Shown: positions 15 through 23,629 of the stretch, in pieces | Layout of the letters: every line of letters begins with the position of its first letter | How positions within the stretch are numbered: the first letter of the stretch is position 1 | Source: a virus | IMG/VR virus record: IMGVR_UViG_3300030943_000164 | Span: 1-24,745 of that record | Length of the DNA stretch: 24,745 bases | Direction: 5' to 3' (one strand) | The notes under the pieces: generated by a model | The model's database searches: none | Seen by the model: the letters and a program-made list of their open reading frames with translations, nothing else | Told to the model about the DNA's origin: nothing | Position numbers and translations under genes: made by a program

Positions 15-99
15 GGAAGATTACAAAGGTAATGGTACCCCTCTCGTTTTGAAAACGGGTGTCGTAAAAGGCATGTTAGTTCGAGTCTAACATCTTCCG
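15..99 (+). tRNA. tRNA-Ser (anticodon UGA)
   Basis: The acceptor stem pairs GGAAGAT (15-21) with ATCTTCC (92-98), followed by discriminator G99. The anticodon arm pairs 43-47 with 55-59 around the loop TTTGAAA, which places anticodon TGA at 50-52. A four-pair variable arm (60-63 with 70-73) marks a class II tRNA. The T arm pairs GTTAG (75-79) with CTAAC (87-91) around TTCGAGT. The D arm is irregular: only a short G-C pairing or an alternative GGTA/TACC hairpin can be drawn, so this part looks divergent. CCA is not encoded. It would read UCA serine codons, which are plentiful in this AT-rich phage. Confidence 0.87.
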
Positions 100-135
100 C
101 AAATTTTAGTTCTTTCACCTTTAATACCTAAAGTT

Positions 136-2458: not shown

Positions 2459-2461
2459 AAC

Positions 2462-2488
2462 AAAAAACACTCGTAATGGGTGTTTTTT
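2462..2488. terminator. Bidirectional terminator between convergent operons
   Basis: AAAAAACAC, a short loop, then GGTGTTTTTT. The hairpin is flanked by an A run on one side and a T run on the other, so it can act on transcripts from both sides. It lies between the end of the endonuclease VII gene (2434) and the end of the lysin gene (2522). It is the only clear terminator seen downstream of the whole structural block. Confidence 0.8.
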
Positions 2489-2521
2489 GCTCTATATTGA
2501 AATAGATGGTGTATAATAGCT

Positions 2522-3478
2522 CTAAAGCTTATTTAACTCTGCATTAGTCTTTTTACCTACGATTCCGTCAGGTACAAGATTATGTAAACCTTGGAAGTGT
2601 TTGACTGCTGTCTTTGTTTTTAATCCAAATATTCCGTCAACGGTTAGATTCAATTTTGTTTGTAACATCTTAACATCTAATCCTTTACTTCCCATCTTTA
2701 ATGTTTTAGTAAATATGAATTTAACATCCTCAAGTGAAGTAATGTATCCAGCATAAAATACTCTGTTCTTAATAAAAGATTCTGTAAGTATTCTTACTCC
2801 TCCTTTACCATAAGTAGGTCCCCATGAGTCTTCAATCATGATTGCTTTTTCTCCTTTATATAAACAGTAACGTGTACCAGCAATTCCATGACCTACTTCT
2901 CTCTTTGAATCAGCATGAAGAGTAGGAACATCTGTCCATTCATCGTAATCAAATCTAGCTCCAAGTAATACTCCATAACCTTGTTCTATAACTTTAGCGA
3001 TTTCATCAATACCTCCTACAATTTGGAAGTAAGCTTTTCCTTTAAATTTAGAAGCTTGTTCTACACATGCTTTTAATTCAGCTTTATCATTCATAAATGA
3101 TTCACCTTTATTATCGCAAGGCATGAATGCTTCTGGACATGAACCGTGTTTAACAGCAATGTCTAGAGCATTAGGTAGCCACATCCCGCCATCAGGATAA
3201 TTTTCTCTACGAGTATAAATAAATTTAGGACATAGGCGTGTGTAATCTTTTCCTTCTTTTATTTCATGCATAGCAAGTATCTTAGAAACAGCTTGAGCTA
3301 CACATGAAGAAGAACCATCTTGATTTTGAATAATCAAAGGTTTGAAATCTTCTTCGTTATATTCTTTCCAGTCTAGTTTAATATCACCCATTGCTAGGTC
3401 AGATGTTTTATAATCTTGTCCTTTTGCAAATAGACTTCTTGGGTCCTCTACGATACCATTGTAATTTTTATCTATCAT
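2522..3478 (-). CDS. Lysin candidate: papain-like cysteine peptidase with peptidoglycan-binding domain
   Basis: 318 residues from the ATG at 3478, chosen because it follows the previous stop as TAATATG; a longer frame to 3505 would overlap the holin-like gene. The N-terminal domain matches a C1A papain fold: Q53-DGSSS-C59 reproduces the oxyanion Gln and catalytic Cys exactly six residues apart, H197 sits in VGHGIAG, and IEDSWG (215-220) corresponds to papain's NSWG with Asp217 replacing Asn. WGPTYGKGGVRI continues the family pattern. A PG_binding_1-type domain (about 259-318) forms the C-terminus. There is no signal peptide, so release would depend on the adjacent holin-like protein. It probably degrades cell-wall peptide bonds at lysis; a virion or host-protein protease is the alternative. 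Confidence 0.82.
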   Translation of the reverse strand: MIDKNYNGIVEDPRSLFAKGQDYKTSDLAMGDIKLDWKEYNEEDFKPLIIQNQDGSSSCVAQAVSKILAMHEIKEGKDYTRLCPKFIYTRRENYPDGGMWLPNALDIAVKHGSCPEAFMPCDNKGESFMNDKAELKACVEQASKFKGKAYFQIVGGIDEIAKVIEQGYGVLLGARFDYDEWTDVPTLHADSKREVGHGIAGTRYCLYKGEKAIMIEDSWGPTYGKGGVRILTESFIKNRVFYAGYITSLEDVKFIFTKTLKMGSKGLDVKMLQTKLNLTVDGIFGLKTKTAVKHFQGLHNLVPDGIVGKKTNAELNKL

Positions 3479-3479
3479 A

Positions 3480-3878
3480 TTATTTACGAGGAATACGTTC
3501 CTCAATTATTGTTGATAATTTTTCTACAGTTAAACCTAATGATGAAGTTGATTCAATTAGTTTGTCTACTTTAACGTCAACTGTGTGGGTGTGGTTAGAA
3601 GCCAATAAGAAAGCTGACTCAAGTCTTTTTCCAAAGTCTTCAAATTTTCTTTCGGTAGTATCCATATACCATTGAAATTGTTTTTCTAGAACTGAAGCTT
3701 TATTTTCTACTTCTTTTTGTGAAAGTAAAGTAGCTTTATCTTTAACTTCTTCTTCTATTTGTATTTGTTTCTTTTCGGCACTTATTTGAGGATTCTTAAA
3801 GTAAAAGTATACAACGAAAATCATTCCGATGAAACTGATTGCAGAACCTATTAAACTGACTATATCCATTGTATCCAT
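3480..3878 (-). CDS. Holin-like membrane protein
   Basis: 132 residues. A single N-terminal hydrophobic segment (about 6-27, IVSLIGSAISFIGMIFVVYFYF) is followed by a long charged, helical, probably coiled-coil cytoplasmic region. Its size, the membrane anchor and its position directly before the lysin (TAA-T-ATG junction) suggest a holin or holin-like partner. Proteins of this shape also occur as membrane-anchored virion-associated spanin-like factors. An in-frame second ATG at 3869 is a possible alternative start; neither has a Shine-Dalgarno site. Confidence 0.62.
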   Translation of the reverse strand: MDTMDIVSLIGSAISFIGMIFVVYFYFKNPQISAEKKQIQIEEEVKDKATLLSQKEVENKASVLEKQFQWYMDTTERKFEDFGKRLESAFLLASNHTHTVDVKVDKLIESTSSLGLTVEKLSTIIEERIPRK

Positions 3879-3902: not shown

Positions 3903-6900
3903 TTAGAACCATAGTAATATTCTCCACATTTCTTGACCTGATTGTCTCATGATATATAAATATTTAAGACCATCAACTGTTTGTATAATTTCCATACGAT
4001 TACCTGATACTGCTGTAGACATACCATAAGGTATTGTTGAAGCGTTTACTATTGTATTTGTTGGTAAATCGTAATAAACTAATCTTCCTGAAACTCCTCC
4101 TAATACTGTTGAAAGACAAATATAAATTCTATCTGCTCCATCATAAACATACATAGCACCTGTAGTGTTAGTTTCAAATTGTGGGAAGTAAGACATCTTC
4201 TCCCATTTTTCTGTAGTAATGTCATAACGTTCCATTTCAACTGTTCCAGTTCCTACGAATGAGTAAAGATATTTATGGTTAAGAGTTGTATCAGAACATC
4301 CAGTTACGTTATCTATATGTATTCCGTTTGCTTTTGGTGAAGCATCTAGAATAGCATAAGCTGTTGAAGCATCTGGAGCTATACCTGCTGCTGTAGTAAT
4401 TGTGTTAAATGTATTTGAAGTAATTATGTATTCATTACCTTGTGAAGTACCTGAAAGAAAACGTAGTCTTTTACCTACCCATGCGTTAGTATCCCAGTTC
4501 TTAGTATTATCTTGCATTACTGTTGTAGAACCGATTGCTGTGATTACTGGAGTAACTGTTAGTCCTACACCTGTTCCTGTAATTGGAGTTGTTGCTGTAG
4601 CTACTGCTGTATATCCTGATGTACCTCCATCTACTAGACGAACTACTGATGGAATACCTCCTGCTACAACCATAACTTGTATGACTGCTGTACCTCCTGT
4701 AACTGAAAGTAAATCTCCTACTGCATATCCTGTTCCTGCTACTGTTGGAGCTGCTGGAATTGTTGAGATACCTCCTGCACCTGCTACCATTCCAAAGGCA
4801 TCCATTATTACGTAACGAGTTGTTGTATCTACTGTAAATGCTTGTGTTGCAAATGTTAGTGTTGTTGATGTATTTGAAATGATTGTAATTTCTGCACCTG
4901 CTCCAGTACCTTCTATAATTCTAACTTTTCTACCTACTACTTTAGCCCATGAGTTTGTTTCCCAGTTCTTTGTAGAATCTACAAGTGTAGTTGTTGAACC
5001 ACCTGTTGCAAATCCATCTGAACCTCCTCCGATTCTTCCGTTATTACTTATTCCTGTACCATAAGCTTTAATATCATGAATGATATATCTTGCAGTTCCG
5101 TTTACTGGTGCTGTTGCTGCTAATGTCCAAGTAAGTGTTGTTGCTGTATTTGAAATAATTCTACGTGTTTGTCCTACTGAAAGTAAGGCATTTGTTGAAA
5201 GTTGAACAAGTTTTCCAACATGTTCATTTACAGTCCAGTTTTTTGTACAATCTACTAATACTGTTGTTGCTTGTGAGAAAGGTATAGTTGCTGTTGCTGC
5301 TCCTGGGTCACCTACTGAACAATAGTAAGTTGTTAGGTTTGTAGCAGATACTCCGATAACTGTATAAGTACCATTGAATTTAGCTGCACCTATTCCTGTA
5401 GCTCCACTAAATGTAACTGATTCTCCTATTTTAAAGTTTACTGGAACAACTGATATTGCAGCTTCTATGAAATCAATATCACCTGCTGCTAATGTAATAG
5501 TACAACCAACACCTCCTGCTGGTGCTACTGTTGTTGCTTTAACACCTGCTGTTGCACCTGTACCTGGAGTTAATAATTCTGTTGAAGTAACTGCTCCAAT
5601 AGCATCTACTCCTGTAACTCTTAATGTTGCTGTAACACCTGTAACTGAAAGAATATCATTTATTTGATAGTTAGCTCCTCCTGTTGTAATTGCTCCAGGA
5701 AGTTTCATTCCTGTTGCTGTACGAGTAATAGAAGTTAAAGCATAAGGTTTATCACCTCCTCTTCTAGCGGCTAAGTTATTAGCTTGTCCATCATCGAAAA
5801 TTCTTCCTGGACTCCATTGGTCTTTATCTTGTGAGTATTGAAGTAAGTCAGCATAGTTTCCTCCTACTAGGAATATTTTATCAGCATCTCTCCATACTTC
5901 ATATTTTGAAGTAGCATCTGGTATAACAGACCAGTCAGATGAGAAGTAAAAGATATTTGTTTTATTTGAAGATATTTCTTTTGTTTGTCCAATACCAGTT
6001 CCTCCAACAATACGAAGTTCAAAGTTCTTATATTGGTTTTCTGTCATTGTTAATCCTGTAGTAACACTTCTAACTGTGGCTGAAGATACAGAAGTTATAG
6101 GAACAATAGCTCCACCATTTTCTGTAAGTCTTTCCATTGATAAATCAGAAGCAGCTAAGTTTACTGCTGTTCTTAATCCTGTTTCAGTTGTTTTTCCATA
6201 CCATTGGTCTGCTAGAATATCGTAGTAAGATAGTGAGAAGAAAGGTGCTGATGTAGTACCTTGTGTAATATTCCAAATACCACCAGACATTATCATAAAT
6301 GTTGATGTTGCATCTGGATTAATAGTCCAAGGAGCATCTACTGTTGCTATATGACTTTCAATAACGAATTGAGTTGATACTGCAACTGAAATGTTCATTA
6401 ATGGATTAGCCCAAGGATTTACTATTAAATAGTTAGGGTCAGACCAAACTACCGAGTTTACTGTATTATATAAAATTGGTCTTAATTGTGTTCTACCTGT
6501 ACCATAAGTTGCTCTAAATTGGTAGTTTCTCCATTCATTAGGTTTCCATTGTTTAAGTCCTGCTCCTGTGTTAGCATCAATAATAGATTGAGTACCTGAT
6601 GTAGTAACAGTTCCTCTTTCAGCAATAATTGGGTCTCCAATACTTAAAATAGTTCTTTCTTGTCCTGCTCCAGTTCCATTTGTAATTCTAATCTTATATC
6701 CTTTTAGAATATCTCCTGAAAGACCAGCTAATTGAATAGTATTATTTCCAGGTCCAGGTCCTATTGCTTGTCCAGCATGTCCAACAGAATTAGATAGAAC
6801 ATTGTTGTTCATTATTGTTGGAGTTGAGAATACTGTCATGTTTGTTAACTGATTCCATGAATCTGTAACTGTATCATAACGATAAAGAGAACCTGATACT

Positions 6901-7037
6901 TGGTAGTATAGGTATCTATTTCCAAGACTATTTCCTGTAGTCATTGAAGATACTGCTGTAGGAATTGCTGGTGCAAATCTACACCATTCCCAAACTGGTA
7001 AATCTACTTGTTTTTTTAAATTATTTGTAACTGGCAT
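3903..7037 (-). CDS. Large modular beta-rich virion protein with kelch-like ends
   Basis: 1044 residues, built of beta-strand repeats. The N-terminus (about 40-62, RYLYYQVSGSLYRYDTVTDSW) and C-terminus (about 915-1044) carry kelch/beta-propeller-like blades with the 'Y..D..t..W' pattern. The middle holds at least three clear copies, and about six in all, of a T..LVD.TKNW.....VGK.....G.....I.SNT.TTLT module, plus two copies of a 'GYxVGDxLSVTGG' module (about 453-516 and 765-832). It starts one base after the previous stop (TAATATG). The size, repetitiveness and late position fit a tail fibre, tail-spike stem or capsid decoration protein. The exact site in the virion is unknown. Confidence 0.8.
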   Translation of the reverse strand: MPVTNNLKKQVDLPVWEWCRFAPAIPTAVSSMTTGNSLGNRYLYYQVSGSLYRYDTVTDSWNQLTNMTVFSTPTIMNNNVLSNSVGHAGQAIGPGPGNNTIQLAGLSGDILKGYKIRITNGTGAGQERTILSIGDPIIAERGTVTTSGTQSIIDANTGAGLKQWKPNEWRNYQFRATYGTGRTQLRPILYNTVNSVVWSDPNYLIVNPWANPLMNISVAVSTQFVIESHIATVDAPWTINPDATSTFMIMSGGIWNITQGTTSAPFFSLSYYDILADQWYGKTTETGLRTAVNLAASDLSMERLTENGGAIVPITSVSSATVRSVTTGLTMTENQYKNFELRIVGGTGIGQTKEISSNKTNIFYFSSDWSVIPDATSKYEVWRDADKIFLVGGNYADLLQYSQDKDQWSPGRIFDDGQANNLAARRGGDKPYALTSITRTATGMKLPGAITTGGANYQINDILSVTGVTATLRVTGVDAIGAVTSTELLTPGTGATAGVKATTVAPAGGVGCTITLAAGDIDFIEAAISVVPVNFKIGESVTFSGATGIGAAKFNGTYTVIGVSATNLTTYYCSVGDPGAATATIPFSQATTVLVDCTKNWTVNEHVGKLVQLSTNALLSVGQTRRIISNTATTLTWTLAATAPVNGTARYIIHDIKAYGTGISNNGRIGGGSDGFATGGSTTTLVDSTKNWETNSWAKVVGRKVRIIEGTGAGAEITIISNTSTTLTFATQAFTVDTTTRYVIMDAFGMVAGAGGISTIPAAPTVAGTGYAVGDLLSVTGGTAVIQVMVVAGGIPSVVRLVDGGTSGYTAVATATTPITGTGVGLTVTPVITAIGSTTVMQDNTKNWDTNAWVGKRLRFLSGTSQGNEYIITSNTFNTITTAAGIAPDASTAYAILDASPKANGIHIDNVTGCSDTTLNHKYLYSFVGTGTVEMERYDITTEKWEKMSYFPQFETNTTGAMYVYDGADRIYICLSTVLGGVSGRLVYYDLPTNTIVNASTIPYGMSTAVSGNRMEIIQTVDGLKYLYIMRQSGQEMWRILLWF
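4344..5270 (-). repeat. Tandem and interspersed protein-coding repeats in the 1044-aa gene
   Basis: Three clear copies of a roughly 65-residue TKNW module lie at 5073-5270, 4797-4994 and 4344-4529. A second module with GYxVGDxLSVTGG lies at 4542-4745, between two of the TKNW copies; its other copy is upstream of this stretch at 5490-5681. More divergent TKNW-like copies occur nearer the N-terminus (about residues 99-150, 160-205 and 321-382). Confidence 0.7.
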
Positions 7038-11747: not shown

Positions 11748-14057
11748 TTATTTTGGTACACTTATGTAAGGTCTAAGTGTGTTATAAATATTATTAGGCA
11801 TACCACTATTCTTAGCAATTTGTTCTAGTGAGAAACCTTTTTGTAATTGATTCATTATTTCTTGAATATCTGAATCTTGCATTCCTGTAGCATCTTCAAT
11901 CTTTTTAACTATCTTAGAATCTTTACCAATGTTAAATGTTTCACCTTTGTAAGCTGGTTTAGGTTCTGGAAGTTTAGTTCCAAAAGATTTAATGTTATCT
12001 GCGTTCTTTTGAGTAGCTGCAACTTTACCTTGTGAGTTAATCATTGTCTTAGCAATATCAAATGGAACGTTCTTGTCAACCATAAGGTCGAGTAACATTG
12101 CATTGTAATCACCAGTAATCTTTTCTTGTTTTGCTTTAGCCTTTTCGTTTTCTGTCTTAATAGAATCTTGGAATTTAGAAACGTAATCTAGTCCCTTCAT
12201 CTTTGTATCAAATCTTAGTTTCATAACATCTAGAGCTACTTCTCTTTCACTCTTAGATAGGTCAGAATTAATATCAATTATCTTTGAATCCATTTCTGAA
12301 TCAAGATTATTTAATTTTTCTGCCATATCAATTTCATTTTCACGGATTGTAAAGTCATAACTATTTTTTGTAGTTAATCTTAGTTGTTGATATTTTTGTT
12401 CTAGAGTTTCAAGACCTGTTTGAGTTGCTCCGTCTGTTCTTAATGCACCAATCTTAGCAAGAAATTCTGTAAGATTTGTTTTAGCTTTAATACGATTAAT
12501 TTCAATTTCAGCATCATCTGATTGTTGTTGAGCTTTAAGTTTATCAATAGCAAGAGTTGCTCTATCACGAACTGTAGTTTCTTCTTTAAGTTCTTTTTCT
12601 GTAATAACATCAATCTTTACTTTAGATTCAACTTTATCTTTTTCAGATTTCGTAAGAATTGTTTTTTCGTATTCAGTTGCAGAATTAGCTACTGATAACA
12701 TTTGAGCTTCTTTCACTGCTTTTTCAGCCGCAAGAGATGTAGGTGCTTGTCCAAGTTTTGTTAGATATTCTGGAGTTGTTTGTGCTGGTACAACACCATT
12801 TGTAACTGGCTTAACCTTTGAAATAATATCTTCTGCTTTTACTCCTTGAGGAAGAGATTTAATTCCTTCTGGAGTTTTATAAAAGGCTACAGCTTGTTCA
12901 GGTGTAGTAAATTGTGAAGCTACATTTGTAGCATAATTAACTGTCTTTGTATTTTGAAATTCTCCCTTTGAACCAGCAGACATCCAAGCTGTGCTTCCTC
13001 CATTTAAGTCATTCTTTAATCCTGTATTAAGATTATTAATATTATTTAGGATTACTGCGTTTGATGCAGATGATGGAGATGCTTCAGACATTAAAGCCGC
13101 ATTAGGGTCTAATATTGGATTATCTGTTCCTGTTGTGTCAGTCTTTGTACCACCTGTATCAACTACAGGGTCAACTACTGGGTCTGGATTTGTATTTAAG
13201 TTGCCTTCACCTGTTATGTCTGGATTGATTCCATTAGTTTCAAGTAATTGTATTGTTTGTGAATTTGCTACGTAAGGTTCAACAGCAGAAGTTGTATTTG
13301 CTTTCATTCCGATTGCTTTCTTAACATCTTTAACGGCTTGTCCTGCAAAAGTACTTGGTGTCATTCCACCACTTAGAAGTAAATCAAGATTTGTTACAGG
13401 TTTTTCATTAACTTGTTTAGCCATGAATGTATCAAGGGAACCTGGAATAAGAGTAGCATCTAATGCACTTGCACCTAATGCTTTTTTATTAACAGTACCT
13501 AATGCATCTTTTACTGGTTTAGCAACAAAAGAATTAAATCCTGTTTTTAGATTATTAAAGAATCCACCAGCAAAAGGATTACCAAATAGAGGTGCCTTTG
13601 TTGATGAAGATGCATAACTTGTTCCTTGAGTTTGTTTTATTGGAATTGCTGGAGATGATTGTTTTGGTGTTGCTGTTGTACTCTTTGGTGTTGATGAACC
13701 AGAAGATGTTCCATATTTATCCATAGCCGCTTGAGTTTTTGGTCCCATGATTCCATCAACAACAAGATTAGCTCCTGCATTATTTAAAGCAATTTGTTGT
13801 GCTTTGATTTGTGCAGAACTAGAAGAAGAACCTCCACCTGATGATGAACCAGAAGAAGATGACTTTGAACTAGATGAACTAGAACTTGAAGAAGAACCTC
13901 CTGATGAAGATTTTCCTGGAATGTTTAAACTTTGTCCGACACTTATTTTATTGACATTAGCAATATTATTTGCACTAGCAATAGCACTTACGGTAGTTCC
14001 GTTAGCTTTAGCGATTGCACTTAATGTATCCCCTGATTTTACTTTGATAGTTGCCAT
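11748..14057 (-). CDS. LysM/PG-binding coiled-coil virion protein
   Basis: 769 residues in order: a LysM domain (3-47, IKVKSGDTLSAIAKANGTTV), a Ser/Gly linker (49-82), a peptidoglycan-binding domain (83-117, VDGIMGPKTQAAMDKYG), a low-complexity Pro/Thr/Asn region, a long helical coiled coil (about 475-650), and a C-terminal helical cap (SLEQIAKNSGMPNN). There is no catalytic hydrolase domain and no signal peptide. Two wall-binding domains on a long coil suggest a tail-tip or internal protein that docks the particle or its ejection channel on peptidoglycan. The ATG lies at +4 of the predicted transcript from the 14067 promoter. Confidence 0.82.
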   Translation of the reverse strand: MATIKVKSGDTLSAIAKANGTTVSAIASANNIANVNKISVGQSLNIPGKSSSGGSSSSSSSSSSKSSSSGSSSGGGSSSSSAQIKAQQIALNNAGANLVVDGIMGPKTQAAMDKYGTSSGSSTPKSTTATPKQSSPAIPIKQTQGTSYASSSTKAPLFGNPFAGGFFNNLKTGFNSFVAKPVKDALGTVNKKALGASALDATLIPGSLDTFMAKQVNEKPVTNLDLLLSGGMTPSTFAGQAVKDVKKAIGMKANTTSAVEPYVANSQTIQLLETNGINPDITGEGNLNTNPDPVVDPVVDTGGTKTDTTGTDNPILDPNAALMSEASPSSASNAVILNNINNLNTGLKNDLNGGSTAWMSAGSKGEFQNTKTVNYATNVASQFTTPEQAVAFYKTPEGIKSLPQGVKAEDIISKVKPVTNGVVPAQTTPEYLTKLGQAPTSLAAEKAVKEAQMLSVANSATEYEKTILTKSEKDKVESKVKIDVITEKELKEETTVRDRATLAIDKLKAQQQSDDAEIEINRIKAKTNLTEFLAKIGALRTDGATQTGLETLEQKYQQLRLTTKNSYDFTIRENEIDMAEKLNNLDSEMDSKIIDINSDLSKSEREVALDVMKLRFDTKMKGLDYVSKFQDSIKTENEKAKAKQEKITGDYNAMLLDLMVDKNVPFDIAKTMINSQGKVAATQKNADNIKSFGTKLPEPKPAYKGETFNIGKDSKIVKKIEDATGMQDSDIQEIMNQLQKGFSLEQIAKNSGMPNNIYNTLRPYISVPK
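13812..13913 (-). repeat. Low-complexity Ser/Gly linker-coding tract
   Basis: About 34 codons for serine and glycine form a direct-repeat-rich stretch between the LysM and peptidoglycan-binding domains. Such tracts vary in length between relatives and likely give a flexible tether. Confidence 0.75.
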
Positions 14058-14097: not shown

Positions 14098-16035
14098 TTA
14101 ATTGATTGATATTATTGAGCCAGGTGTGTAGGTCTTCTTGTCTTCCTTTTCTCCAGCTACCGCAAATTGAAGAACTGTAAAGGTTTCATCAACTGCATTA
14201 TTTGATAATTGTATTGTTAATGATTGGGCTTTTGATAGAAATGAAACACGTCTTTTAACCATCGGTCCTGAAGCAAGGGAACTAAATGCTATGTCTGCAC
14301 CGTAAACTGTTCCAATACTATTTGTTGCGTAAGCACGAACGTGGTAAGCTGTGTTTGCTATTAATCCCGCTACTAGAGTACTATATGCACCTATACCACC
14401 AGTAACAATAACTTTGTTATTTGTTATTGTTGGATTAAGTGATGTACCCCATACAAATCCCATTTCACCTGTTTCACCTCCATCGTCTGTTAGATTTCCT
14501 TTTCCTACGAATGATGATTGAGAGATACTATTTACTCCATCTGTTGTAACAGTAGGTGCAACAGCTATTGTTTTAAATCCTACTGTTGAACCATATTGTG
14601 TTCCATATTGGTTTGTTGCAAAAGCAACTACACGATAGTTTGTTGTACGTGTTAAACCTGTAATATTTTTAGTAAATGCTCCTGTAGAGAAATTACCACC
14701 ATCTGTTAAATTAATTGGTGCTACTGAAGATGATGATGCTGTAAATCCATCAAAGTAAACTGTACATGATGAAGATGATGTCATTCTACCACGTATATAC
14801 AATTTAGTCATATCAGAACTACATAACATTGTAACAGTTAAATATTGCCAAGTTGAATTTCCTGTATGTGGTGTTGAACTAAATTCTGCATAACTAGAAC
14901 CGTTATAATCAATTATATTAACGTGTCCTTTTCCTGCTTGTGAAGACCATACCCATGCACCTATTGTTATATATTTATCTCTATAAGCTGTGGTGTCTAA
15001 TGAATATTCAAAATAAGCTTCTGTACCTGATGTCCAAACAAGTTTACCTGATTGTGTTCCATATTTTGCTTGGTCGGTAGATGCTGTGATAGTACCAAGA
15101 CCTGTAGTCCATTGTAATGTTGCATTTGAAAATGATGGATTTGGAATTGGAACAAAGGTTATATCTCCACTAGATGCAGGAATATAAGCAACACCCATTT
15201 CGTAAGCATTTTCACTTCCTATGTCTGTTATGTTTCCATTTCCAACTGCTGTAGTTGCTGCGATTGAAGTAACGTCTTGTGTTGTAACGATAGGGGGTAG
15301 AACGACTGTAAGTGTTCCACTTGTTGTCATTTCAAGAATTGTGTTTGCTCCTGAAATTATTCTATTATAAGTTCCTGAATAAGTACAGTAACCAAAGTTA
15401 GCTGTAACATAAGAAATAACAACAGCTCCATTATAACCAACTGTTGCAGTTCCTCCTGACGAACCTCCTGCACCTGTACCAGACCATCCATTTGCTGATA
15501 CTCCATAGTTCGAGTTATATCCTCCTCCTGCAATCCATAATACACCTGAAATATTTTGTCCAAGTGTTGAATCTTCCATTGGGTTAACAATACCAATACC
15601 TCCATTACGTGAATCTGAAGCAGGTACTCCACCTGCACCTCCTCCACCTCCTCCATCTGTACCAGAAAAAGAACCGTGAGTTGTACGTCTACCTGCACCT
15701 CCATCATAACCTTGTCCTACAGTTCCATAACCTCCACGTACACCTGGATTTCCACCTTGTCCTCCACCTCCTGAACCTCCATCTATACCTGTTCCATCTC
15801 CATTTTGTCCTCCTCCACCTCCAATAGCTGTTAGAGAAGAAAATACAGAGTTTTGTCCTGAAGTAGAATATGTACCTCCATTACCAACTGTAACTGAATA
15901 TGTACCTGCTGTAATTGTAAATGATGCATTATAAATAACACCTCCTGCACCTCCTGATGGTCCAGTAAATCCGTGAGAGTTCGCTGTAGAACCTCCTCCT
16001 CCTCCCGCTATAACTAATGCTTTAAGTACTGCCAT
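14098..16035 (-). CDS. Glycine-rich adhesin / receptor-binding protein with CBM-like and FN3 modules
   Basis: 645 residues. The first 209 form a glycine-rich domain with AGGGGGS, YSVTVGNGGT and repeated GGGGG runs, as in phage adhesins with polyglycine helices. A first FN3-like repeat starts near 248 and resumes near 437-490 (LTRTTNYRVVAFATNQYGTQYG). Between them (about 285-437) is a jelly-roll, carbohydrate-binding-like domain (NPSFSN ... YRDKYITIGAWVWSS ... YFDGFTASSSS). A second, uninterrupted FN3 repeat covers about 495-585. A short beta tail ends the protein. This layout indicates host-surface glycan recognition. The start is one base after the previous stop (TAATATG). Confidence 0.83.
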   Translation of the reverse strand: MAVLKALVIAGGGGGSTANSHGFTGPSGGAGGVIYNASFTITAGTYSVTVGNGGTYSTSGQNSVFSSLTAIGGGGGQNGDGTGIDGGSGGGGQGGNPGVRGGYGTVGQGYDGGAGRRTTHGSFSGTDGGGGGGAGGVPASDSRNGGIGIVNPMEDSTLGQNISGVLWIAGGGYNSNYGVSANGWSGTGAGGSSGGTATVGYNGAVVISYVTANFGYCTYSGTYNRIISGANTILEMTTSGTLTVVLPPIVTTQDVTSIAATTAVGNGNITDIGSENAYEMGVAYIPASSGDITFVPIPNPSFSNATLQWTTGLGTITASTDQAKYGTQSGKLVWTSGTEAYFEYSLDTTAYRDKYITIGAWVWSSQAGKGHVNIIDYNGSSYAEFSSTPHTGNSTWQYLTVTMLCSSDMTKLYIRGRMTSSSSCTVYFDGFTASSSSVAPINLTDGGNFSTGAFTKNITGLTRTTNYRVVAFATNQYGTQYGSTVGFKTIAVAPTVTTDGVNSISQSSFVGKGNLTDDGGETGEMGFVWGTSLNPTITNNKVIVTGGIGAYSTLVAGLIANTAYHVRAYATNSIGTVYGADIAFSSLASGPMVKRRVSFLSKAQSLTIQLSNNAVDETFTVLQFAVAGEKEDKKTYTPGSIISIN

Positions 16036-20590: not shown

Positions 20591-22279
20591 TTACATATTT
20601 TGAGGTAGTGCATTTGTATTTGCTACACTATCTTGTGGATTATTAACTTTACTTGGTGGTTGTTGTTGTGTGTTTAAAGGTGCTTGTGGATTCTCTAAAG
20701 CCATAACTGATGCAATTTCTTCATCTGTCCAATCCATTAATTCTAATTCTTTCTTCTTTGCAATCATTATTGCTACTGGATTATTCATGAAAGAATTTTT
20801 AATGTATTGAATCTTCTTTAGGTCAAAGTCATCTGCTGCACTTGCTTCTGATTCTACTTCAACTTTAACTTCGTATCCTTGAGGAGTTAAGAAATCATTT
20901 GTGAATACATCTTTAGCATTATAGTTTCCATCTGAACTCTTTTTGAATAGAGTTACAACACCTGTTTTATTATTTTTTAGAAGGTCATAAAATAGACATC
21001 CAAGTTCTTTCCAAGCTTTACGATAATTTTTTGATACAACACTATTTCTTTGTGCTGATTTTTGTAGGGATAATTGAACTTGTCCTAGTGTTTGTTCTCC
21101 TGGTTGTTTTTCACCTCTTTCTTCGGCTGTTTGAGCAACTGAAGATTGAGCTAAATTCTTAAGGAAACTCATTTGATTTAGTGTATCTCCAAGTGGATTT
21201 ATTTCCATTTGTTTAACTATATCAGAAGGATTACCTGGAACACCAAACATTCCGAATGGTTTAGCATCAAATGCTCTAGGTTGGAATGTTCCATTCATTG
21301 TATTGAAGAAATACATTCCGAAGTTACGATATGTTCTATTCTCAAGGTCTTGAGAAAAGTACATATTAATAACTTTATTTATTGTTCTAACATTATCTGC
21401 AATACCATCACTCCAGAAATCTACTGCATCTGGGTCTGAAGCCCAAGTTACTATAGGAATCTTAGAAATTCCAATAGCTTCTTTCAAAGGCATATCCAAT
21501 AGAAGAATAGAATCAGTAGCGTATGTTCTAATATGACGAATAAATTTCTTTACATCATCATGCCAAACCATTTCGTATGATTCGTTTATTTCTACCATTA
21601 TATCTGCAGATTGGTATTCATCAAAATTTGATACACCAAGATTTTCTAATCTTTCTTTACGTAGTAAATATGATTGTTCATCTGTTGCAGCTTTTAATAA
21701 TCCAGCTTTTGAATCTAGATAAATCTTTAAATCTTTTTTAGCATCTGCTTTATATTTTGGATTTGCTAATATTTCACGAAGAGAACGATAGATATGTGTT
21801 TGTTTAATATAAGTAGCTGTCTCAATGTCTAGTGGATTTACACGTGGGTCAATTTCAATATCATAAGGGTCAATCAAGTCTATAAATATTTGACCACCTG
21901 ATATACCAATCTTTTTAAATCCTCTACCTTGTAATCCTACTATTTTTTTTTCGGCATTATCAAGAATATCAAGTTTTAATTTATCGTAGTAATAATCCCA
22001 TAGTTCATTCATTACTATTTCTGCATCTTTGTCTTTGTTTGCTTTATCACGTGTTTCGAACTTAAGTTTTGGAGCTTCATCAATCTTAGATAACCAAGTT
22101 TGAATTGTTTCACGAATAACAGGAATATTAACAGGTTGACGTTGTGTCAATCTGTTTGTGTTTACCTTATCTCTATATAAAGAGTAGGATTCATTCCATT
22201 GTTGGAATCTACGTTCCTTAAATTTGATGGAATCTTCCTTATCTTTAATATGTTGAGCTACGATTTGTTCTTTATCCAT
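20591..22279 (-). CDS. Portal protein
   Basis: 562 residues, a normal portal length. The N-terminal helical region (FQQWNESYSLYRDKVNTNRL), a wing with DNAEKKIVGLQGRGFKKIGI and FIDLIDPYDIEIDPRVNPLD, a central beta region, and a long crown-side helix segment (TLGQVQLSLQKSAQRNSVVSKNYRKAWKELGCLFYDLL) fit dodecameric portals that thread DNA into the head and bind terminase. The last 30 residues are Gln/Pro/Asn-rich and probably disordered. It lies after TerL, with its own promoter and a leader of about 28 bases. No Shine-Dalgarno site is seen. Confidence 0.88.
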   Translation of the reverse strand: MDKEQIVAQHIKDKEDSIKFKERRFQQWNESYSLYRDKVNTNRLTQRQPVNIPVIRETIQTWLSKIDEAPKLKFETRDKANKDKDAEIVMNELWDYYYDKLKLDILDNAEKKIVGLQGRGFKKIGISGGQIFIDLIDPYDIEIDPRVNPLDIETATYIKQTHIYRSLREILANPKYKADAKKDLKIYLDSKAGLLKAATDEQSYLLRKERLENLGVSNFDEYQSADIMVEINESYEMVWHDDVKKFIRHIRTYATDSILLLDMPLKEAIGISKIPIVTWASDPDAVDFWSDGIADNVRTINKVINMYFSQDLENRTYRNFGMYFFNTMNGTFQPRAFDAKPFGMFGVPGNPSDIVKQMEINPLGDTLNQMSFLKNLAQSSVAQTAEERGEKQPGEQTLGQVQLSLQKSAQRNSVVSKNYRKAWKELGCLFYDLLKNNKTGVVTLFKKSSDGNYNAKDVFTNDFLTPQGYEVKVEVESEASAADDFDLKKIQYIKNSFMNNPVAIMIAKKKELELMDWTDEEIASVMALENPQAPLNTQQQPPSKVNNPQDSVANTNALPQNM

Positions 22280-22345: not shown

Positions 22346-23629
22346 TTACATCCCCATCTCTGGATACATGTCATCAACACCTCCACAAACTGATTGATTT
22401 GAGAATTGATTTACTCTAATTGGTTGTTGTGGAATTTGCCAAACAGCTAAAGCTAGAGACATAATTCTATCGTCATGTTTACCATCAGGAACCTGAATAG
22501 AAGTAGTACCATTATCATTTAAACTATATGACATAGACTTAAGTTCTGTTATGAGTACGTCATCATTTGGTATTTTAATCTTATCTTGTTCTAAGAGTAT
22601 TTGTAAATTATGTAATATGTCAGTTCTAGATACTTTATTGAATCTGAAAGGAGTTATGTTCATTCCTCTTGCATATAAGTCATCGAATATAGGTTCACCA
22701 ACTCCAGTAGAGTCAATCATTATCATTCCTTTGTTGTGTTTTAGATATACGTTCTCAATTCTAGCCTTTTGTAGATTATAATCCATTTGATTAAATGAAT
22801 CTTGCTTTAAAAGGTGGAAATCATTAAGATTAAAAGGAGAAATAACAGTAAAGTCATTATATTTAGCCAAGTCAACTCCAATTTGATACATTGCAAGTTC
22901 TTTTGGTGTATATTCTTCCATTTTATAGGTATTTTCGTCAATTCTCTTGAAGAATCCAAGTCCGTTATCTAGGAAAGTACAGTAATATTCTTGTTTAAAT
23001 AGGTCAGATGGCATCTCTTTTCTAGCATCTTCTAGTTGTTCTGGTGATAATGCTTTTGTTTTATCAACAGTAAGTACTTCACAGAACCATTTAGGGTCAT
23101 GTTCAATAGTTTTCATTAGGTCCCATGCATGATTGATTCCACGGGGAGTCATAATGAAGATAGCCCATCCTCCGTTTTCACGTAGAATAGGTGAGATGAA
23201 GTTCCATACGTCAGGCTTCATCAAGGAATATTCAGAGAAGACTACTCCGATAGGGTTTGTTCCAACGATACGGTCAATGTTATCTGCTCCAACCATCTGT
23301 AAAATAGAACCGTTAATAAGTTCTATAATCATATCTGATTGGTTGATTGATTTTACTATTTCTTTAGGAAAGTGGTCTAGGAATTTGAATCCATCTTTAT
23401 CGGCACCTGTCCAGATAACCTTTTTAGCCTGGGCGTAGGTTGGTAGGAAGTAGTAATAGGTTCCTTTACGTTCCATCATCTTTTTAGGAAGATTAGCGAA
23501 GATTGTTTTATCTTTTCCAGAACGTCTATGAGCAACCCAATAGAGTCTATCAATACCTGAATCCCAAGCTTTGAGAATAGGTATTTGATAAGCACGTGGT
23601 TTAAAATGATACGGTAGAGTTATTTCCAT
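22346..23629 (-). CDS. terL: Terminase large subunit (TerL)
   Basis: 427 residues, at the short end for TerL but complete. The ATPase domain shows a Walker A-type motif HRRSGKDKT (34-42), Walker B VVFSEY (129-134) and a coupling motif FIMTPRG (158-164). The RNase H-like nuclease domain has D253 in GVDLAKYNDFT, D306 in MIDSTGVGE and D387 in GKHDDRIMSLALAVW. It cuts concatemeric DNA and pumps it through the portal. The start overlaps the TerS stop by one base (TAATG). Confidence 0.95.
   Translation of the reverse strand: MEITLPYHFKPRAYQIPILKAWDSGIDRLYWVAHRRSGKDKTIFANLPKKMMERKGTYYYFLPTYAQAKKVIWTGADKDGFKFLDHFPKEIVKSINQSDMIIELINGSILQMVGADNIDRIVGTNPIGVVFSEYSLMKPDVWNFISPILRENGGWAIFIMTPRGINHAWDLMKTIEHDPKWFCEVLTVDKTKALSPEQLEDARKEMPSDLFKQEYYCTFLDNGLGFFKRIDENTYKMEEYTPKELAMYQIGVDLAKYNDFTVISPFNLNDFHLLKQDSFNQMDYNLQKARIENVYLKHNKGMIMIDSTGVGEPIFDDLYARGMNITPFRFNKVSRTDILHNLQILLEQDKIKIPNDDVLITELKSMSYSLNDNGTTSIQVPDGKHDDRIMSLALAVWQIPQQPIRVNQFSNQSVCGGVDDMYPEMGM

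Follow-up and report, generated by a model that had tools for sequence, protein, structure and literature searches.

What does a papain-type peptidase joined to a wall-binding domain do at the far end of a phage's late genes? The window, that is, the whole stretch of DNA analysed here, is a fragment of 24,745 bases, judged against relatives of about 38-41 kb. Its late genes lie on the minus strand and include a terminase (22346-23629), a portal-like protein (20591-22279) and tail-type genes; this unit ends with the gene for a 132-aa membrane-type protein (3480-3878), followed by the peptidase gene (2522-3478), and the early genes occupy the plus strand beyond a stem-loop at 2461-2489. Judging from sequence, we consider that the product of the peptidase gene is probably a phage endolysin belonging to a papain-type class, in which a C1A peptidase is combined with a PG_binding_1 domain. 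The features that enter the argument are as follows.

2522..3478, minus strand: C1A papain-fold peptidase with PG_binding_1, proposed endolysin (open reading frame, Pfam, profile, predicted fold, purifying selection)
2729..3478, minus strand: residues 1-250, xylellain-like C1A catalytic domain (model aligned to 3ois 25-290)
3320..3322, minus strand: codon of Q53, oxyanion-hole Gln (papain Gln19), in 25 of 25 aligned members; aligned to the papain family in the PDB
3302..3304, minus strand: codon of C59, nucleophile (papain Cys25), in 25 of 25; aligned to the papain family in the PDB
2888..2890, minus strand: codon of H197 (papain His159), in 25 of 25; in none of the search motifs
2828..2830, minus strand: codon of D217 (position of papain Asn175), Asp in 23 and Glu in 2 of 25
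2705..2719, minus strand: FIFTK linker, residues 254-258, common to other C1A-PGB and M23-PGB phage proteins
2540..2674, minus strand: PG_binding_1, residues 269-313 (Pfam E 3.1e-10, 40.5 bits, cut-off 23)
3480..3878, minus strand: protein of 132 aa, hydrophobic in one N-terminal segment and coiled-coil-like in the rest
2461..2489, no strand assigned: symmetric, terminator-like stem-loop flanked by A/T runs; it separates the converging early (plus) and late (minus) units

The peptidase reading frame starts with an ATG at 3478, one base past the stop codon of the preceding 3480-3878 gene, and runs to a last sense codon ending at 2525 and a stop at 2522-2524, encoding 318 aa. Codon positions 1, 2 and 3 differ from those of the closest relative (67% identical) at 85, 63 and 165 of 317 codons, which indicates purifying selection on the gene. 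On reading of the translation, its N terminus bears no signal-peptide-like start.

Other parts of the window also hold genes of note. A tRNA-Ser (anticodon TGA) lies at its extreme left end (15-100, plus strand). Within the structural cluster, 11751-14057 (minus strand) encodes a protein of 769 aa that bears a LysM domain at its N terminus and a further PGB-like stretch, which is weak; it has a 50% identical counterpart in G011, a relative described below, and is a candidate virion-borne wall-binding protein. A glycine-rich (Gly_rich_2) tail-type protein is encoded at 14101-16035 (minus strand), where G011 and another relative, G015, have other, dissimilar proteins, so that this place may hold a host-recognition module. 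Dissimilar tail-type proteins also stand in G011 in place of the 1044-aa protein of 3906-7037 (minus strand), which has kelch-like ends and repeated middle segments.

The earlier note had proposed a C1A cysteine peptidase, and the first matter was whether the fold is that of papain or of the CHAP or NlpC/P60 lysins. Taken singly, the protein gave weak evidence: Pfam Peptidase_C1 (PF00112) matched with E 0.08 and 13.4 bits, under the gathering cut-off of 20.7, and single-sequence matches reached E 0.007 for cathepsin K and 2e-5 for Amb a 11. A family profile (A2), built by aligning the protein with 14 viral relatives (15 sequences in all), had as its best match xylellain (3ois, E 1.1e-20), followed by ficin matches and cathepsins, including cathepsin K. 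An AlphaFold2 model of the 318-aa protein (pLDDT 89.1, pTM 0.82) was then compared with the PDB; all 50 Foldseek matches listed were C1A enzymes, and VIA-align placed model residues 1-250 on xylellain 3ois with Z 26.6 and an rmsd of 2.6 over 236 aligned residues at 20% identity, papains and cathepsins following at Z of about 20-23, with C1A enzymes in all rows listed. The family profile and the predicted fold together make the C1 match decisive, and the modelled catalytic domain is genuinely of the C1A papain type, as had been claimed. It carries an N-terminal extension of ~33 residues ahead of a DW motif.

A CHAP or NlpC fold, by contrast, drew no support: all fold matches listed were C1A, though absence from that list does not by itself decide the matter; profile searches of Pfam and NCBIfam at E<=0.1 matched neither CHAP (PF05257) nor NlpC/P60 (PF00877), and neither appeared among the families matched by 25 relatives. 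Peptidase_C39_2 (PF13529) had no match in the 318-aa protein and a weak one (E 0.0098) in 1 of 15 broader relatives.

The motifs on which the proposal had been based are all present in the 318-aa protein, namely Q53-x5-C59, GHGIAG with H197 and EDSWG with D217, and these residues stand in papain order; a profile alignment puts C59, H197 and D217 on the Cys, His and Asn of procerain B. Across an alignment (A4) of 25 Asp-clade members with identity down to 28%, all members keep the Gln, Cys and His, and an acidic residue always stands at position 217, although the conservation of Q53 and C59 has to be read knowing that both lie within the search motif that found many of the 25 members. The tryptophan of the SWG motif, W219, is kept in 22 of the 25. 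The third triad residue, Asn in C1A enzymes, is Asp217 here. Asn, Gln, Asp and Glu are all listed as canonical at this place in papain-like enzymes (PMC10318531), and the fungal protease MOA uses Glu (PMC8244254); Asp217 therefore marks a variant. The change itself, which the earlier note had singled out, is real; it is less striking than that note implied, since it is clade-wide and the residue is an allowed one. Changed pH dependence is possible, though nothing in the data points to such a change. The wall-binding tail is likewise as proposed, with PG_binding_1 over the Pfam cut-off, and the C1A domain of residues 1-250 together with this domain gives the protein the modular build of an endolysin.

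We then wondered how widely this arrangement occurs. A search with the single protein returned one full-length viral relative and no relative in bacterial genomes, and a tblastn search with the catalytic domain as query found, among cultured phages, one 595-kb metagenomic phage (E 5e-3) and otherwise chance-level matches. Relatives were better found by DNA patterns, one for the linker and PGB motif and one for the motif round the catalytic Cys. The pattern for the linker and the PGB start brought up 18 viral contigs, most with C1A+PGB and two with M23+PGB, and the pattern around the catalytic Cys only brought up 27 contigs; in all, the viral relatives come from about 35 contigs. PG_binding_1 is present in 24 of the 25 aligned members, many of which came from the catalytic-Cys motif, which is neutral as to PGB, and Peptidase_C1 matches at E<=0.1 in 21 (best 2e-13). 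A tree built from 19 catalytic domains has a branch (94/97) that separates the Asp/Glu members from the Asn forms, the latter including cultured Gordonia and Streptomyces phage proteins. One sequence, L035, fitted the C1A motif poorly and was excluded from the tree and the statistics; MT838839 (H1) was rejected as a relative, having the PGB part alone in common. A scan of bacterial genomes with the terminase, intended to reveal a host, found no relative.

Several of these contigs have features of their own. Two (L036:2976-3695, minus strand; L045:2306-3025, plus strand) encode an M23 peptidase with the same FTK linker and PG_binding_1, a case of catalytic-domain swapping. In G013 (40,836 bases), the left end (L062) and the right end (L054) overlap inside the C1A-PGB gene, both encoding AFLAKNSWGKNYPLVWIPYTTMQRLLNEDGEAALITDEVEVD, so that this record gives the impression of a complete genome, circular or circularly permuted. 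Directly after the C1A-PGB gene of another contig lies a gene for a small protein (L084:11524-11964, plus strand) that by eye resembles CHAP/NlpC-type amidases, and past it come a TM protein and then a transglycosylase-like gene.

As regards its role, we compared the same position in phages with related terminases. In G015, whose terminase is 89% identical to that of the window, an M15_3 peptidase occupies it, following the tail genes and a small coiled-coil protein with a TM segment; in G010 (75% identical) it is taken by a PGB+M15_4 protein, so that known wall hydrolases fill the slot in these relatives. G013 (61% identical) has a C1A+PGB gene in the slot and then Amidase_2. G011 is closest (93% identical) and was uninformative, its lysin slot falling at contig ends. 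The M15 and amidase enzymes of these relatives would imply that the host wall is murein. Further, a same-strand gene for a small TM protein lies at <=250 bp from 23 of 33 C1A genes, and from 52 of the 352 other genes of those loci; the Fisher p of 4e-11 treats related phages as independent, which they are not, and is indicative only.

In the window this neighbour is the 3480-3878 gene, whose product is, on its sequence features, a possible holin or holin accessory. It was rejected as a known holin, having no match that names it in Pfam, NCBIfam or the other family libraries searched, and it shows no clear similarity to the corresponding neighbour in L091. Of the earlier proposal that the peptidase gene sits in the lysin position after a holin-like gene, the position finds support in the M15 peptidases of G010 and G015, and the neighbour is at present no recognised holin.

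Taken together, four indirect lines, the M15 enzymes in the same slot, the M23 peptidases with the same PGB, the pairing with TM genes and, in several loci, the nearness of transglycosylase- or amidase-type genes, make an endolysin, acting as a wall endopeptidase, the best reading. A C1 gene flanked by lysin A parts and a holin in cultured Gordonia phages fits this reading too. Such an enzyme would be made late and would cross the inner membrane through a holin, perhaps aided by the 3480-3878 product; its PGB domain would bind murein, and its thiol mechanism would cleave peptide or wall-linked protein bonds, whereupon the cell would burst. There is about an even chance that the bond lies in the peptide part of murein, which is the likeliest target, wall-attached protein being the next option. 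More tentatively, the group may form a large class of phage endolysins in which a C1A domain with a Cys-His-Asp triad serves as a murein-peptide endopeptidase that cuts next to D-amino acids and is the main lysis enzyme of widespread environmental phages.

C1A enzymes are proteases of ordinary L-peptides, and in the open-licence literature searched we found no documented case of a C1A domain cleaving murein peptides that contain D-amino acids. The rival that fares best builds on this: the protein, bound to murein by its PGB, would be an accessory lysis protease acting on proteins of the envelope or attached to the wall (S-layer, lipoprotein and the like), and a separate amidase or transglycosylase would cut the murein. 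Because C1A enzymes cut ordinary peptides, this stays a fair competitor. Indeed, transglycosylase- or amidase-type genes lie near C1A genes in several loci, often with an Amidase_2 or transglycosylase-like gene beside or near the C1A-PGB gene (G013, L035, L038, L041, L091 and L093), so that the C1A protein may be accessory, and Gordonia phages have C39 and amidase lysin A genes plus a C1 gene. Against this, G010 and G015 have M15 peptidases in the slot, and the same PGB module also occurs with M23, which links slot and module alike to the cleavage of murein peptides; moreover, five C1A-PGB records of 34-40 kb, possibly incomplete (G025, G026, G030, G033 and G035), have no SLT, Amidase_2, M15_4 or Phage_lysozyme match. 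The window itself, at 24.7 kb in a group of about 40 kb, is incomplete, and another lysin may sit in the missing part. On balance we consider the accessory protease unlikely.

The early regions of G011 and G015 each contain a short gene whose product begins like a signal peptide and continues with a body resembling lysozyme/transglycosylase (L053:13546-13983, plus strand; L055:6253-6714, minus strand); of the two proteins, P0006 has a weak Pfam Lys match and P0005 has no match. The window's counterpart of this region may be missing, in which case a second wall enzyme may exist there.

It is distinctly improbable that the protein acts at infection and not at lysis, as a virion-associated lysin that would sit in the tail or capsid and open the wall locally. 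The peptidase gene does close the structural operon, after the tail genes, as such a component might; the protein, however, is small (318 aa) and has no tail-type domain, the pairing with small membrane-protein genes suits a late lysis cassette, and the LysM-bearing 769-aa protein is the better candidate for a virion wall protein. Still more improbable is a degenerate papain homologue, inactive and retained for wall binding alone, which the sub-threshold Pfam C1 score and the replacement of the triad Asn by Asp might have suggested; Gln, Cys and His are kept in all 25 relatives down to 28% identity, the third residue is always acidic, and Asn, Gln, Asp and Glu alike are listed as canonical there (PMC10318531). 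A head-maturation (prohead) protease, or another protease processing phage proteins, deserves hardly any credence and was rejected: a protease fold within a phage genome could invite that reading, but within the cluster the gene is at the opposite end to the portal and capsid genes, and a murein-binding domain accompanies the fold in 24 of the 25 relatives.

Returning to the endolysin reading, we compared the protein with known systems. Xylellain, a C1A peptidase of Xylella fastidiosa, resembles it as the best fold match to residues 1-250, in its N-terminal extension and in triad order; the phage protein differs by Asp at the position of the triad Asn and by its C-terminal PG_binding_1. We know of no role of xylellain in lysis. 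Xylellain-type C1A genes in tailed phages have been described as horizontal gains (PMC10380794).

Among cultured phages, the C1 peptidases of Gordonia phages, GMA2 orf38 and Aleemily gp29, are alike in lying between the lysin A genes and the holin, and in related Gordonia phages the C1 gene comes directly before the holin; in 2015 a C1-type motif, cd02619, led to the naming of GMA2 orf38 as a putative lysin (PMC4524720). Unlike the protein described here, they are single-domain proteins without a PG_binding_1 match, have the triad Asn, belong to a distant clade and adjoin C39 and amidase lysins. The 'endolysin' of Alicyclobacillus phage MMB025 (XXN61434.1) likewise combines Peptidase_C1 and PG_binding_1 in one protein; it differs in its 753-aa length and in an Rv2525c glycoside-hydrolase-like domain between the two, and its role comes from annotation. 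Two uncultured-phage proteins in BFVD, A0A6J5MXS7 ('Peptidoglycan binding-like') and A0A8S5PQA2 ('N acetylmuramidase'), match beyond the catalytic domain at ~20% identity and were named from the binding domain or by general annotation, not as C1A lysins. CHAP and NlpC/P60 lysins are also papain-like cysteine enzymes serving as phage lysins (PMC10318531), but they belong to other families of the papain-like superfamily, ones that give no profile match in the phage protein. The M15 + PGB lysin of G010 shares the slot, PG_binding_1 and the late operon, and differs in its catalytic domain, an unrelated zinc peptidase.

The idea of a papain in a lysis module therefore has precedents, in GMA2 orf38 (PMC4524720) and the MMB025 'endolysin'. 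C1A papains go unmentioned as a lysin class in the open-licence phage lysin surveys consulted, and in the open-licence literature searched we found no description of a C1A endolysin, GMA2 orf38 coming nearest (PMC4524720). What is new here is the Asp-triad C1A + PGB protein as a family; such enzymes had earlier been noted piecemeal, and they are not a new kind.

The 318-aa protein falls under the Pfam C1 cut-off, so automatic lysin searches based on CHAP, NlpC or amidase families can overlook a group that is widespread. A C1A peptidase with a wall-binding domain, in a lysis-cassette setting, occurs on about 35 viral contigs. If wall cleavage by these proteins is true, they would add a new catalytic class to the endolysins, would prompt the question of how murein can be dealt with by a fold that serves to cut ordinary protein bonds, and would offer, through thiol probes (E-64-like), a handle for studying such lysins.
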